Shown piece by piece: positions 3,641-47,991 of a DNA stretch of 55,236 nucleotides (position 1 is its first letter; every line of letters begins with the position of its first letter). A program made the translations under genes and the position numbers. This stretch comes from Anaerolinea sp. (GTDB lineage Bacteria > Chloroflexota > Anaerolineae > Anaerolineales > Anaerolineaceae), in assembly GCA_020725865.1 (NCBI GenBank), contig DYEC01000021.1, positions 1 through 55,236 of the forward strand. The letters run 5' to 3'. Below the pieces are notes generated by a model. The model did no database searches. It was given only the letters and a program-made list of their open reading frames with translations, and was not told the origin of the DNA.

Positions 3641-4249
3641 CTAACTCATGTCCTGTCTGCCAGCTAGTGCCCGCAACAAGGTATTCTGATCAGCATACTC
3701 CAGATCACCGCCAACGGGCAGACCGCGCGCTAGCCGTGTGATCCGCACGCCGCTACCTGCCAGTTGCTGGTGCAGATAGAGCGCGGTGGCATCGCCTTCC
3801 ATACTGGGATTGGTCGCCAGAATAATTTCACGTATCTTACCGCTTTTGACGCGCTCAATTAAGGGTTGAATCTTCAGGTCCTCCGGACCGATCCCTTCAA
3901 TCGGCGATAACACACCATGCAGGACATGATACCTGCCGCTGAAACCGCCGGTTTGTTCGATGACCAGCACATCTAAGGGTTCCTCCACCACGCACAGCAA
4001 TCCCTCATCGCGGCGCGGATCGGTGCAAATGTCACAGACTGGCTGATCAACGAGTGTGATATTGAAACAAACCTGACAGAGCGCGGTGGCAGTTTTCAGG
4101 GCATTTAGAGCATTGGCAAGGTTTTGAGCAATCTCCTCCGGTGCGCGCAGCAGGTAAAATGCCAACCGCGAGGCGGTCTTTGGTCCGATGCCGGGCAGCC
4201 GTTCAAAGGCAAAAATCAGGTTGCGGATGGGTTCGGGCAGGCTGGGCAT
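3641..4249 (-). CDS. recR: Recombination mediator protein RecR
   Basis: A 202-residue protein of the usual RecR length. It shows, in order: an N-terminal helix-hairpin-helix (LPGIGPKTASRLAF, about 18-31); a four-cysteine zinc finger (C58, C61, C72, C75); and a Toprim domain with the conserved VVEEPLDVLVIE and the ATNPSMEGDATALYL segment. The C-terminal ITRLARGLPVGGDLEYAD is diagnostic. RecR works with RecO and RecF to load RecA onto gapped single-stranded DNA. It is the last gene of the dnaX-ybaB-recR operon, 9 bases after ybaB, and is followed by a clear terminator. Confidence 0.97.
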   Translation of the reverse strand: MPSLPEPIRNLIFAFERLPGIGPKTASRLAFYLLRAPEEIAQNLANALNALKTATALCQVCFNITLVDQPVCDICTDPRRDEGLLCVVEEPLDVLVIEQTGGFSGRYHVLHGVLSPIEGIGPEDLKIQPLIERVKSGKIREIILATNPSMEGDATALYLHQQLAGSGVRITRLARGLPVGGDLEYADQNTLLRALAGRQDMS

Positions 4250-4258
4250 GTGCGTTTC

Positions 4259-4600
4259 CTAAAAACCGAGACCGGGCAGGCCTCCTGCCAGTGGTCCCAG
4301 ACGTTCCGCCGCCAGTTGACGGGACTGCTCAAGTGCCAGATTGATAGCGCTCAACATCAGGTCTTGAAGCATTTCCGCGTCTGCATCCTGTAGTACTTCA
4401 GGATTGATTTCAACTGCTTTGCAATGCTGATCGCCGGTCATGGTGATCTTGATTACTCCACCGCCAACCGTTGCGGTAACCGTTTCCTCAGCCAGTTGCG
4501 CCTGCGCCGCTTCCAATTGTTCTTGCATGGCGCGCAATTGTTGCATCATGTTGCCGCCGCCCATACGACCGCCTGCAGGACGATTGAAACCTTTTGCCAT
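4259..4600 (-). CDS. YbaB/EbfC family nucleoid-associated protein
   Basis: A 113-residue protein. A Gly/Met/Gln-rich N-terminus is followed by the family's helical segment (MQEQLEAAQAQLAEETVTATVGGGVIKITMTGD) and the conserved core 'AVEINPEVLQDADAEMLQDLMLSAINLALEQS'. YbaB proteins are dimeric DNA-binding proteins of the nucleoid, almost always encoded between dnaX and recR as here. AGGAGG stands upstream of the start. The gaps to both neighbours (9 and 21 bases) fit one transcript. Confidence 0.93.
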   Translation of the reverse strand: MAKGFNRPAGGRMGGGNMMQQLRAMQEQLEAAQAQLAEETVTATVGGGVIKITMTGDQHCKAVEINPEVLQDADAEMLQDLMLSAINLALEQSRQLAAERLGPLAGGLPGLGF

Positions 4601-4621
4601 AAGAGTTCCTCCTCGAGATCT

Positions 4622-6226
4622 CTATTCTTTCTTTACGATTTGACCGCCCAGATTCAGGGCAGTATTCACCAGTCCATCTTCCGACACATCGTCATCAGAT
4701 TTGCTGCCTCGCGCGTTGTGCACAACGCATTGAATGCTCAACGGGTGTCCAAGCACCTGCGTCAGCACCTTATGCACCAGCTCGATGTTTTCTCGGCTTT
4801 CCATTTTAGATTTCAGCACTTCAGTGGCAAAGCCCAGCACCAGTATGCCGTCTTTGATGGTTAATGGACGGGAAGAATTCAATAGGGCTTCTGCCATCAT
4901 ATTCTTTTCTTTGACCGCCGCGCGAATACGGCGCCAGTTCTCTTTGACTGCAGCAAGGGTGATTTCCCCTTCCGATGGCGGCGGGGTAGAAATCAACTCT
5001 GGGACAGACTTTATTTGAGGGGTGGGTTCTTTTTGGGGGGCGCTTGCTTTTGCCTCTACCGGTTGTTCAGATGGAGAGGCTGGGCTTGGGGCTTTTGATA
5101 CCGGTCTTGACGGACTGGTAGCGACAGGAGCACTCATTTGTCCCGGCTCATTTCCTTCGATGGACTGCGCGACCGCCAGTTCGAGCAGCAGCGCAGGCTG
5201 CCACCCGCCGCGCGTCTCGGTAGCAGCGGTATTGAAAAGACGCACCAGTTCGAGAAGCTGCGGCATTGTGAATGCCTGTGCCTGTTTTGCCATTTGCGTC
5301 CGCATTTCGGTTGTAGCTTCAACCTGGTCAGTGTTTCCCAATCGAATCAAAAGCAAATTGCGTAAATGTTCCACCATCTGACGGGCAAACTGACGCGGAT
5401 CGGCGCCAGCATCCAACGAGCGGTGGACACAGGTCAGCCCCTCCGCCGCCTGCTGTTTCAGGATGGCGTCCACCAGTTCGATCACTGCCTGGTTGGTCGC
5501 TGTGCCCAGCACAGTTTGTGCCATTGCCAGCGTGATCCGTTCACCAGTGGAAGCAAGCTGATCGAGCAGCGAAATGGCATCACGCAGCGCGCCGGTGGAT
5601 TGACGGGCGATCAATATGAGCGCCTCTGTTTCAACGTCTATGCCTTCTGCGGCAGCCATTTTCTGCAGATAAGCGACAATATCGTTGACCGGGATACGGC
5701 GAAATTCATACCGCTGGCAACGGGAAAGAACGGTTGCCGGTATCTTGTGAATTTCGGTGGTGGCGAGGATGAAAATAGCATGTGGCGGGGGTTCTTCCAG
5801 AGTTTTCAATAGCGCGTTGAACGCCGCGGTTGAAAGCATGTGGACTTCGTCTATGATATAGACTTTGAATTTACCCTGGCTGGGCGAGAAGTTGATTTTA
5901 TCGCGCAGATCACGGACATCTTCCACGCTGGTGTTGGAAGCCGCGTCAATTTCAATCAAATCCAGGAAGCGCCCCTCGTTGACTGCCTGGCAGTGGGCGC
6001 ATTGATCACAGGGACGGCTGGCAGGATCGTCTGAAAGGCAGTTCACAGCTTTTGCCAGCAGCCGGGCAGTGGTAGTTTTGCCTGTGCCACGCGGTCCGGC
6101 GAAAAGATAAGCATGACCTACGCGGTTGGCGCGCACTGCATTACGCAGGGTATGAATAATGTGTTCCTGACCAACCACCTCTTCCCAAACATGAGGGCGC
6201 CATTTCCGGTAAAATGCCTGATTCAT
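4622..6226 (-). CDS. dnaX: DNA polymerase III subunit gamma/tau
   Basis: The start is placed at the ATG giving MNQAFYRKWRP, the invariant DnaX N-terminus. The reading frame extends 44 codons further upstream, but that part does not resemble DnaX and overlaps the upstream gene. The 534-residue product has Walker A GPRGTGKT (44-51), a four-cysteine zinc site (C63, C73, C76, C79), Walker B DEVH (126-129) and an SRC sensor-1/arginine-finger segment. A Pro/Ala/Ser-rich linker (about 370-430) leads to a C-terminal domain. The protein is the clamp-loader ATPase of the replisome. No slippery A-run for programmed frameshifting to gamma was noticed. Confidence 0.96.
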   Translation of the reverse strand: MNQAFYRKWRPHVWEEVVGQEHIIHTLRNAVRANRVGHAYLFAGPRGTGKTTTARLLAKAVNCLSDDPASRPCDQCAHCQAVNEGRFLDLIEIDAASNTSVEDVRDLRDKINFSPSQGKFKVYIIDEVHMLSTAAFNALLKTLEEPPPHAIFILATTEIHKIPATVLSRCQRYEFRRIPVNDIVAYLQKMAAAEGIDVETEALILIARQSTGALRDAISLLDQLASTGERITLAMAQTVLGTATNQAVIELVDAILKQQAAEGLTCVHRSLDAGADPRQFARQMVEHLRNLLLIRLGNTDQVEATTEMRTQMAKQAQAFTMPQLLELVRLFNTAATETRGGWQPALLLELAVAQSIEGNEPGQMSAPVATSPSRPVSKAPSPASPSEQPVEAKASAPQKEPTPQIKSVPELISTPPPSEGEITLAAVKENWRRIRAAVKEKNMMAEALLNSSRPLTIKDGILVLGFATEVLKSKMESRENIELVHKVLTQVLGHPLSIQCVVHNARGSKSDDDVSEDGLVNTALNLGGQIVKKE

Positions 6227-6239
6227 GATTGTTCCATCT

Positions 6240-6728
6240 CTATTGAATAGTGTATTGCGCTCGCAGGTTTCCTGCAGGATCCAGCAGGATAACGGTTTCT
6301 CCGATGCTCCAAATCGGCTGATCCTGGTTCCAGTACACGGCTTTAGCTGTGTTAACACCGGTGCGGGTGTAGATTTCCAGCGTACCGCTGATAAAGTTCA
6401 GGTTGCCAAATGTGTATGTGTTACGATTTTCATCCATCAACTTCCAACCGTTTAACCACAGGTCACCCTTGCCAATGCGTTTCAGCCGTACCACTTCATT
6501 TTTTGGATCTCCGGCGCCAAAAACATTTTCTATCTCAATCACTGGCTGGTCAAGCGGCGGCAGCGGGGGGGCAGTGACAGCTAGAGTTACGCTGACAATC
6601 GGCTGAAACGTGGGGACGACAGAACTGCTTGACTGGGAGCGCCCCCAAAGCCACAACACCAGTAGCGTTGTAAGTGCAGAAACGAGCACGTTAAGCAAGA
6701 GATAAGGCAATACTCGTTTCCAACTCAT
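6240..6728 (-). CDS. Membrane-anchored lamin-tail-domain (LTD) protein
   Basis: The start is placed at MSWKRV, which begins a single transmembrane anchor (residues about 6-28). The frame stays open 89 codons further upstream, but that part overlaps the divergent NYN gene and looks non-coding. After a Ser/Pro-rich linker (29-65), residues of about 70-160 fit a lamin tail domain: 'VIEIENVFGAGDPKNEVVRLKR' then 'LWLNGWKLMDENRNTYTFGNL', 'LEIYTRTG' and 'WSIGETVILLDPAGNLRAQY'. Bacterial LTDs are immunoglobulin-like extracellular adhesion or cell-surface domains. The stop lies 13 bases before dnaX, so the two are probably cotranscribed, an association with no obvious functional reason. Confidence 0.8.
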   Translation of the reverse strand: MSWKRVLPYLLLNVLVSALTTLLVLWLWGRSQSSSSVVPTFQPIVSVTLAVTAPPLPPLDQPVIEIENVFGAGDPKNEVVRLKRIGKGDLWLNGWKLMDENRNTYTFGNLNFISGTLEIYTRTGVNTAKAVYWNQDQPIWSIGETVILLDPAGNLRAQYTIQ

Positions 6729-6797
6729 AGTTTCGACCCGCTTGAATGATAGCACAGAATGGCGATAAAATGGTATATCTAAACATGGAGAACCAGA

Positions 6798-7274
6798 GTG
6801 CATTTTCTTGTAGATGGTCACAATCTGATCCCAAAAATCCCCGGCTTGAGCCTGCGTGATCTGGAAGACGAAGAGCGGCTCATTCATTTGTTGCAGGAAT
6901 ACTGCCGGCTTTCGCGCCATTCTGTCGAGGTGTATTTTGATCGGGCTGCGCCGGGCCATGCGCACACGCAGCAATATGGAACGGTCAAAGCGCATTTTAT
7001 TCGCAACAGTATAACAGCGGATCAGGCAATTATTGATCGTCTGCGGCGGCTGGGGAAGACAGCAGCAAACTGGACGGTGATCAGCTCAGACCGCCGGGTA
7101 CAGGTTGAAGCACGGTCAGCGCGAGCGAGGGTGATGACCTCAGAAAATTTTGCCCGCCAGATACTCAAGCAACTTGAAGATTCTTTTGGTGAGTTGCGTG
7201 ATGTATCTGTGAGAGAGGAAGAATTATCCGAGTGGCTAAAAGTTTTTGGCCCGGAAGAGAAGGGGAATACCTGA
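6798..7274 (+). CDS. NYN (YacP-like) PIN-fold RNA-binding/ribonuclease protein
   Basis: A 158-residue protein with a GTG start preceded by GGAG. It opens with FLVDGHNLI, the NYN/YacP signature that supplies a catalytic Asp and Asn. It continues with 'VEVYFDRAAPG' (second acidic position), 'ADQAIIDRL' and 'WTVISSDRRVQVEARSARARVMTSENFARQI', the third acidic cluster of this PIN-like fold. YacP/Rae1 proteins are ribonucleases; Rae1 of Bacillus cuts mRNA on the ribosome. The acidic residues are present, so activity is plausible. The gene is divergent from the LTD-dnaX operon and is followed by a candidate small RNA on the same strand. Confidence 0.85.
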   Translation: MHFLVDGHNLIPKIPGLSLRDLEDEERLIHLLQEYCRLSRHSVEVYFDRAAPGHAHTQQYGTVKAHFIRNSITADQAIIDRLRRLGKTAANWTVISSDRRVQVEARSARARVMTSENFARQILKQLEDSFGELRDVSVREEELSEWLKVFGPEEKGNT

Positions 7275-7293
7275 AAACTCTTATCTTTTTTTA

Positions 7294-7322
7294 ATGAAAT
7301 TATGACAAATATGGTGTATATT
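7294..7322 (+). promoter_or_regulatory. Putative promoter of the intergenic small RNA
   Basis: A -35-like ATGAAA (7294-7299) is 17 bases from a -10 box TATATT (7317-7322). The predicted start (7329-7331) coincides with the beginning of the structured region. It lies just after the stop of the NYN gene, so the RNA need not be a read-through product. The -35 matches consensus at only 4 of 6 positions. Confidence 0.45.
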
Positions 7323-7328
7323 ATCAAC

Positions 7329-7480
7329 AAGACACCAATAAAACTTTACTGGTAGATCAGGTGTCTGCCACCGGTGATGACTGCAAGCGCGTCCCCCCCG
7401 TGTTGGCGGTAGCACAGGTGGTATTCCCTCCCTGAAGATTGCCATGCCTGTCCCCCCCAGGTGTGGCAATCAACTTTTAA
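7329..7480 (+). ncRNA. Candidate small RNA with two UCCCCCC-loop hairpins
   Basis: This 150-base stretch between convergent genes has no plausible reading frame but dense potential structure on the plus strand. Hairpin 1 pairs 7331-7336 with 7360-7365 (GACACC/GGTGTC). Hairpin 2 pairs 7368-7372 with 7417-7421 and 7382-7384 with 7412-7414, and ends in GCGCG/CGTGT (7387-7391, 7399-7403) around the loop TCCCCCC. Hairpin 3 is a continuous 14-bp stem (7437-7450 with 7458-7471, two G-U pairs), again with loop TCCCCCC (7451-7457), followed by CTTTT and so possibly a terminator. Exposed UCCC-type loops are known from regulatory RNAs that pair with Shine-Dalgarno sequences (for example Rsa RNAs of Staphylococcus). 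It does not resemble 6S, SRP, RNase P, tmRNA or a riboswitch known to me. The fold was made by eye. Confidence 0.5.
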
Positions 7481-7484
7481 CCGG

Positions 7485-8669
7485 TCAATGAATCACGCCC
7501 AGTTTTTTCCCGACTCTGGCAAATATTTCCAGTCCCTTTTGCAAATCTTCCTGGCTGTGAGCAGCAGAGATCATTACCCGGATGCGCGCCTTGCCGCGCG
7601 GCACCGTAGGGAAACCCAGCGCCATGGCAAAGACGCCTTCCTCGAACAGCTCGCGGCTGAACTGTTGTGCAAGCGGTGCCTCACCCAGCATGATCGGAGT
7701 AATCGGAGTAACGCTCAGCCCGGTGTCAAACCCTAGGCGGCGCATTTCAGATTTGAAATAATTGGCATTTGCCCAGAGCTTGTCTACCAGTTCGGTGGAG
7801 TTTTCCAGAATATCCAGCGCGGCGATACAGGCAGCTACATCTGCCGGCGTCGCGGCTGAAGAGAACAGGAAAGGACGACCGCGCTGGCGCAGCCATTCAA
7901 CAATCAGCGGGCTGCCTGCCACCGCACCGCCCACCACGCCAAAGGCTTTGGAAAAAGTGCCAACTTCAACATCTACTTTACCGTGAAGGTCAAAGTGGTC
8001 AACGATTCCCCGACCGCCGCGCCCAAGCACGCCCTCACCGTGCGCGTCATCCACCATCAACATCACTTCATGCTGGCTGGTGACTTCGTAGATCTTGTCC
8101 AGGGGAGCAATGTCACCGTCCATGCTGAATACCCCATCGGTAACTGCCAGCCCGCGCCTGTACTTTCCCTTGTTTTGCCGGATTGCCTCATCCAGTGCAT
8201 CAGGGTTAACATGATTATAGCGAACAATCGTTGCCCCAGAAAGTCGGCAGGCATCTATGATGCTGGCGTGGTTTAGCTCATCTGAGTAGATCACGTCTTC
8301 CTTGCCCACCAGCGCCGGAATGGCAGCTAAATTTGCCATAAAACCGGATTGAAAGGTGATCGCCGCCTCAACATTTTTAAAACGTGCCAGCCGCCGTTCC
8401 AGCTCCAAATGCAGCTCCAGCGTCCCGGCGATGGTGCGCACCGCTGCCGGACCGACACCATAAACATTCAAAATCTCTTGCGCGGCTCTAACCATCTGGG
8501 GATGATTTGCCAGCCCAAGATAGTTATTTGAGCAAAAATTCAGCACTCGTTTGCCGTCCACCACCAGCCAGGCACCCTGGGCTGATCCGATGGTGCGAAT
8601 GCGGTTATAAAGCCCCGCTTGTTTGAGTGCTTCCAGCTCCTCCTGGATCCAATCAAGTCGTTTGGACAT
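7485..8669 (-). CDS. kbl: Glycine C-acetyltransferase / 2-amino-3-ketobutyrate CoA ligase (AONS family)
   Basis: A 394-residue PLP enzyme of the alpha-oxoamine synthase family, with CGAGGAG before the ATG. The N-terminal '[16 protein letters not shown]', '[21 protein letters not shown]', '[16 protein letters not shown]', '[17 protein letters not shown]' and the PLP-lysine motif TFSKAFG are all present. This family condenses an amino acid with an acyl-CoA. Kbl makes or cleaves 2-amino-3-ketobutyrate in threonine/glycine metabolism, and BioF makes 7-keto-8-aminopelargonate. The start (about 30 residues before [11 protein letters not shown]) and the overall length resemble Kbl more. No tdh or bio gene is adjacent, so the substrate call is moderate. 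Confidence 0.75.
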
Positions 8670-47971: not shown

Positions 47972-47991
47972 AATGCATCCCCCTTGGTTGG

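Follow-up and report, generated by a model that had tools for sequence, protein, structure and literature searches.

Small RNAs with C-rich loops are known from Actinobacteria and rhizobia. The actinobacterial 6C RNA (RF01066) is defined by two stem-loops carrying runs of six or more C, and in Mycobacterium tuberculosis it reportedly binds mRNAs through its C-rich loops without a chaperone. The excerpted text of PMC9569102 describes 6C with C-rich loops. For the rhizobial NfeR1 (alpha-r14), excerpts of PMC10746234 describe three hairpins with differing stems, each presenting an identical unpaired anti-Shine-Dalgarno motif, and report that the motifs are redundant, that the RNA is Hfq-independent and that it has its own conserved upstream promoter element. 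A structured RNA named after the Chloroflexi, Chloroflexi-1 (RF01698), appears in the excerpts of PMC2864571 for Chloroflexus aggregans. Our search of the open-licence literature turned up no description of a trans-acting RNA from Anaerolineae and no paper in which the whole words 'Anaerolineae' and 'sRNA' occur together. Among the matches listed on Chloroflexi structured RNAs or a UCCCCCC sRNA, none describes the RNA reported here. Its co-mentions of 'Anaerolineaceae' and 'small RNA' concern other subjects by title, and a palindromic-repeat paper that names Anaerolinea, among the matches listed, merely tabulates A. thermolimosa in the excerpted part (PMC12306157).

We analyzed a 55,236-nt stretch of DNA from Anaerolinea sp. 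(contig DYEC01000021.1; the window hereafter), whose source genome belongs to the same family as Levilinea, Bellilinea and Longilinea (Anaerolineaceae). The RNA site is the spacer between yacP, which ends at 7274 on the plus strand, and a convergent gene at 7485-8669 on the minus strand that appears to encode a kbl-like aminotransferase (Pfam Aminotran_1_2; kbl by our own reading). The features are as follows, where A1 is an alignment of 21 homologous loci made with MAFFT, blind to structure.

6798..7274, plus strand: yacP, NYN-domain RNase family (Pfam PF05991, 5.2e-15); outside the RNA proper, conserved upstream neighbour
7277..7314, plus strand: operator-like conserved block TCTTA-N6-TTTAATG...GACAAA, three units about 11 bp apart (weight matrix, 46.1 bits)
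7317..7322, plus strand: -10 element TATATT, kept in homologues
7329..7478, plus strand: predicted small RNA of about 150 nt (covariance model match 7324-7483; covariation)
7331..7365, plus strand: P1 hairpin GACACC/GGUGUC with loop motif UUUACUGGUAG (double changes in 4 of 6 pairs, A1)
7368..7421, plus strand: P2, stem CCACCG/AGGUGG around the first C-loop hairpin (double changes in 3 of 6 pairs, A1)
7386..7404, plus strand: P2a, first UCCCCCC-loop hairpin (stem 7386-7391/7399-7404, loop 7392-7398; double changes in 5 of 7 pairs)
7424..7435, plus strand: single-stranded UUCCCUCCCUGA, among the best-conserved stretches of A1
7437..7471, plus strand: P3, terminal UCCCCCC-loop hairpin, presumed terminator (double changes in 10 of 13 pairs)
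7472..7478, plus strand: tail AACUUUU (sequence)

Like 6C, the window RNA has two stem-loops with six or more C per loop; it differs in adding P1, P2 and a single-stranded CCCUCCC, and in its taxon. The 6C model reached 18.2 bits (gathering score 47, E 4.1), and 18 loci scanned to E 5, 16 from the order Anaerolineales and two from family f34, gave no match to it. With NfeR1, as excerpted, it shares an identical C-rich motif on unrelated stems, whereas the NfeR1 motif given there is CCUCCUCCC and the window RNA has UCCCCCC and CCCUCCC, in another phylum and at another locus. CCUCCUCCC has no match in the window RNA and its flanks (L032), and the window gave no Rfam match under the NfeR1 or alpha-r14 name. 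The best sub-threshold Rfam match of the region is ar7 (RF02342, Alphaproteobacteria), at 20.5 bits (E 0.044; gathering score 60), and ar7 is again sub-threshold in L058 (21.6 bits); the likeness lies in stem-borne C-rich loops, GUCCCCC and CCUCC. RF01698 is not among the Rfam matches. At the gathering score, Rfam recovered tRNAs alone in the window and in nine further loci (eight carriers of the RNA and L109).

The initial annotation had described twin hairpins of differing stem with an identical loop, UCCCCCC, closed by a G-C pair, and both are present within 7329-7480. The stem of the first comprises 6 continuous bp, two of them G-U, and the minimum-energy fold prolongs it across small gaps in the pairing; the second has the 14 bp and two G-U pairs ascribed to it (7437-7450/7458-7471, loop TCCCCCC at 7451-7457). 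TCCCCCC occurs eight times over both strands of the window (two plus, six minus), and a stem of at least 6 bp closes only the two copies in the RNA. The folding energy of the 152-nt RNA is -60.9 kcal/mol (z -5.62). Three conserved parts had been missed: the 5' hairpin loop UUACUGGUAG, the stem CCACC/GGUGG round the first hairpin and the single-stranded stretch listed above. From the -10 element, the 5' end of the RNA would lie near the A of AAGACACC. Many homologues have CTTTTAA or GTTTTTAA in place of the AACUUUU tail. The region had also been described as free of reading frames; among frames of at least 20 aa, the plus strand holds a single 24-aa GTG frame, and two on the minus strand, 62 and 38 aa long, cross the RNA. 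We rejected an alternative pairing of the 5' loop with the P2 strand CCACCRG, which had looked appealing on inspection, because the actual pairs do no better than permuted ones (1161 of 5000 permutations were at least as good).

The proposal of an unannotated small RNA had been staked in part on whether homologous regions keep the stems and loops. They keep both, and the proposal is strongly supported by this comparison. A plain DNA search matched 22 of 61 genomes, the source genome among them, and every matched genome is of the same family; one of these matches (L029, genome G007) looked coding by eye and was omitted from A1, and G007 has a model match elsewhere. On A1, RNAalifold recovered the terminal hairpin P3 with its compensatory changes. 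For the four-helix structure (P1, P2, P2a and P3), 22 of 32 pairs show double changes, a number reached in none of 500 shuffles, and 69 cells carry double changes compared with 18.7 in shuffles. Standard pairs make up 89.6% of the A1 pairs, as against 79.1% in shuffled and 33-39% in slid controls. Because fold and consensus guided the choice of this structure, and the shuffles ignore relatedness, these figures lean in its favour, and the slid controls are the better guide.

Every one of the 32 pairs carries double changes in a wider alignment (A2); this covariation is not independent because A2 was fitted to the model. A2 has 81 rows, of which 79 were counted after a wrong-strand match (L176) and a very weak one (L274) were dropped. 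Over these rows, identity is 91% in the P2a loop and 85% in the P3 loop, compared with 79% in the P1 stem, 63% in P2, 58% in P3 and 54% in P2a; the junction stands at 70%. The C-loops outlast their own stems, so the loops look like the object of selection, though P1 is also well kept. The aligned loci show a conserved, structured RNA, as judged from covariation, with C-loops that are retained while the stems change.

A covariance search of relatives, as the initial annotation had advised, found the RNA in 84 of the 147 family genomes scanned (model R1). Cultured carriers include Levilinea saccharolytica, Bellilinea caldifistulae, Longilinea arvoryzae and Thermanaerothrix daxensis. As 21 of the 84 trained R1, the other genomes give 63 of 126. 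R1 matched 62 of 201 genomes in an order-wide sample (families f1, f5, f7, f8, f12 and f14) and 19 of 251 in a phylum sample, every one of the latter in the same order and none outside it. Evidence for spread outside the order is weak: the class sample gave R1 four such matches, at 30-35 bits, and a second model (R2) matched 12 genomes beyond the order with scores of no more than 49 bits, its training set having included three of these genomes (f34). Among 80 of 83 pattern loci that the model scored, all strong matches (at least 93 bits) are Chloroflexota or Anaerolinea-group records. Diverged versions that R1 genome scans did not call occur in f5 (L270) and perhaps in f4 (L274); on the isolated loci R1 scored 27.9 and 19.5 bits, respectively. 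Several genera of the family gave no R1 match, and seven family genomes (G139, G089, G006, G011, G112, G015 and G017) have yacP with no C-loop RNA within 420 nt behind it. The RNA was probably lost in these seven, and it would be dispensable in the several genera that have yacP without it.

Some loci deserve separate mention. In L197 (G152:C111) two copies of the RNA lie about 1.2 kb apart, the second with its 3' half kept and its promoter and P1 apparently degraded or replaced. The three f34 loci (L186-L188) carry a related or convergent C-loop RNA, with GCCCCCCUC in the terminal loop of L186 and L188 and UCCCCCC in that of L187; in L186 and L187 the RNA stands behind frames that are similar to each other by eye and are not yacP. 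In an alphaproteobacterium (Rhizorhabdus, L109:5876-5945, minus strand), CCCUCCCUGA and a C-loop terminator hairpin follow, apparently directly, a coding frame, and the element resembles the 3' half of the window RNA. This locus, at 38 bits, was not counted, as the match covers only those two parts and the locus had been pre-selected by pattern.

The region had been said to be framed by a promoter-like sequence and a terminal hairpin. Both are present, with reservations on each: the plus-strand site at 7294-7322 matches 9/12 and a minus-strand site scores higher, and the terminal hairpin is followed by a weak U-run (AACUUUUAA), with no call by the terminator scan. Because these scans do not settle the strand, the plus-strand unit rests on conservation. 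The minus-strand site is sigma-70-like (7327-7299, 10/12 with TG) and points toward yacP in antisense. Upstream of the RNA, 45 homologues have TTCTwAT-N4-TTTAATG-yaa-N4-GAyAAA in common, with a -10 like GTATATTA after it, and the distance from block to -10 is identical in 41 of them. The matrix built from these 45, possibly including the window locus, scores 46.1 bits at the block upstream of the RNA and 13.7 bits at its second-best window match (3559, minus strand). It describes a subset of homologues, since 45 of 87 distinct upstream stretches entered it; the remainder lack the core, many of them being minus-strand loci taken in the wrong orientation.

When one mismatch is tolerated, all 10 of 10 genomes contain fewer copies of the core pattern than of its reversed control. 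Among 30 core-pattern loci scored, the full block was seen only at the RNA, and two other places reached 17.3 and 15.9 bits. A unit spacing of about 11 bp is typical of operators of OmpR/PhoB-type regulators. The idea of a Pho regulon, taken from this spacing, was abandoned: none of 30 PBP_like_2 loci, not necessarily all pstS, reached 14 bits (best 12.9).

With a probability of roughly 0.6, by analogy with the described systems, we read the window RNA as an independently transcribed, Hfq-independent, trans-acting antisense small RNA of the C-rich-loop class, outside 6C and NfeR1. Transcription would start at its own promoter between yacP and the RNA, behind whose conserved block a regulator may act, and would be halted by the last hairpin. 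The stems would serve only to expose two to four C-rich single-stranded segments, namely the UCCCCCC loops and CCCUCCC in the junction or the 5' loop. These segments may serve as seeds, redundant with one another, whose pairing to the G-rich ribosome-binding regions of several mRNAs would block translation without Hfq. NfeR1 and 6C offer a good analogy for the putative binding of Shine-Dalgarno sequences by the C-rich loops. Of the readings considered, a multi-seed antisense RNA comes out as the likeliest because both designs match and because an Hfq profile had no match in any of the eight genomes searched; the same profile matched in 5 of 14 control genomes.

UCCCCCC fails to match the canonical Shine-Dalgarno sequence GGAGG, which counts against this reading. 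A candidate pairing site in the window, GGGGGA at 47978-47983 on the minus strand, had been named in the initial annotation, which labels it the ribosome site of a PfkB gene; it is there, six bases before an ATG, and on sequence it appears to be no more than a 6-nt match, one of many G-rich sites. GGGGGGA precedes ATG 223 times in seven relatives with the RNA, compared with 101 for the reversed pattern, and 37 times compared with 18 in five relatives without it. This enrichment is about twofold with and without the RNA and so reflects ordinary ribosome sites. In four genomes (G000, G031, G020 and G003), 16, 35, 39 and 27 GGGGGGA sites were listed and 15, 35, 30 and 20 fetched, the unfetched G000 site being the complement of the RNA itself. 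These 100 sites, exact seven-base matches only, yielded 32 frames of 50 aa or longer, and no orthologue is shared among them.

The C-rich segments vary in place and kind among homologues. Four, three, two and one unpaired C-rich segments occur in 7, 41, 29 and 2 of the 79 rows, respectively, so that 77 rows have at least two and 48 at least three. A loop with at least six C is found at P2a in 54 rows, at P3 in 48 and at both in 35, and the junction carries CCYCC or CCCC in 69. The P1 loop reads UUAYUGGUA, with GGUA or GGUU in 66 rows; it is CUGCCCUCCC in many members of f12 and f14 and CUGCCUCUCC in both f8 members that have a full P1. In several f12 members the last loop has no C's, and some seemingly end after P2. 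Where the last loop lost its C's in L163, L170 and L173, the C-rich junction is extended and the 5' loop contains CCCUCCC. The two rows with a single segment, L016 and L020 (G012 and G004), have a UUCUCC-type terminal loop together with a GCUUCCC junction, and their first UCCCCCC loop is the one clear C-rich loop. This joint change looks like two seeds co-evolving toward another target. In L192 (G014) the motif UUAUUGGUA occurs twice in the P1 loop, and the doubling suggests that the motif may itself be a binding site.

The main rival to the antisense reading is a protein-binding sponge, in which the repeated C-rich loops would titrate a C-binding RNA-binding protein, as CsrB titrates CsrA through GGA loops. 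We regard this as unlikely. One loop motif repeated on unrelated stems, with a mostly fixed loop length, would suit a sponge, as would a segment number that stays mostly at two to four while position shifts, and the searches for conserved targets were negative. The junction and the 5' loop, on the other hand, carry CCCUCCC or CCUCC instead of the heptamer, which fits antisense pairing better than a single protein site.

Considerably less probable is that the RNA is the 3' UTR of the yacP mRNA, a processed end of it or a plain yacP terminator, with no function in trans. Loci were oriented in 75 match genomes, 71 of them inside the order, and in 66, all within the order, yacP immediately precedes the RNA on the same strand, as a 3' end of yacP would have it. 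Yet the conserved block and the -10 element intervene between yacP and the RNA, P1, P2 and P2a covary as well as the terminal hairpin, and the seven family genomes named above have yacP with no RNA found behind it. Conversely, five genomes of the order carry the RNA without yacP at the locus. By our own reading of translations, a dnaX-like frame precedes the RNA in two of these (G028 and G148) and a frame resembling window ORF 6240-6995 is present in a third (G056), so the neighbourhood persists where yacP was not found; in the other two (G030 and G005) it differs. Close to the RNA in L193 and L195 there is likewise a dnaX-like frame, and positions 3641-6358 of the window (minus strand) likely hold a cluster of recR, an EbfC-type gene and dnaX, as judged by eye on the translations.

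A cis-acting element or riboswitch of the next gene is very improbable. The structure is complex, and the conserved 5' loop could be aptamer-like, but the next gene of the window is convergent and the RNA therefore lies in no leader, which largely refutes this reading. Moreover, the window's downstream gene recurs downstream in just 7 of 86 loci, tRNAs come after the RNA in some, and the RNA terminates in a hairpin of its own. Chance hairpins in an intergenic spacer are already refuted, as none of 2000 dinucleotide shuffles of 7275-7484 gave two hairpins of at least 6 bp with a common 7-nt loop, and homologues with compensatory changes are found in scores of genomes.

The YacP family is that of B. 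subtilis Rae1, a ribosome-dependent RNase, and a functional tie between the RNA and YacP is possible. A bolder reading, which we hold to be rather doubtful, would make the RNA a dedicated, Hfq-independent global regulator across Anaerolineales, with its own promoter of the response-regulator type, interchangeable C-rich segments acting as seeds toward a set of G-rich ribosome-binding sites or as a decoy of a C-binding protein, and a functional tie to YacP.

The regulatory RNAs of this bacterial group are hardly explored, and the covariance model, which includes the window's own sequence and matches it at 7324-7483, is a potential new Rfam entry. Its frequency in the order, its fixed place next to yacP and its loops, which persist through the turnover of their stems, would make the RNA a ready test case for how C-rich-loop RNAs act without Hfq and how RNAs of this kind may have arisen again.
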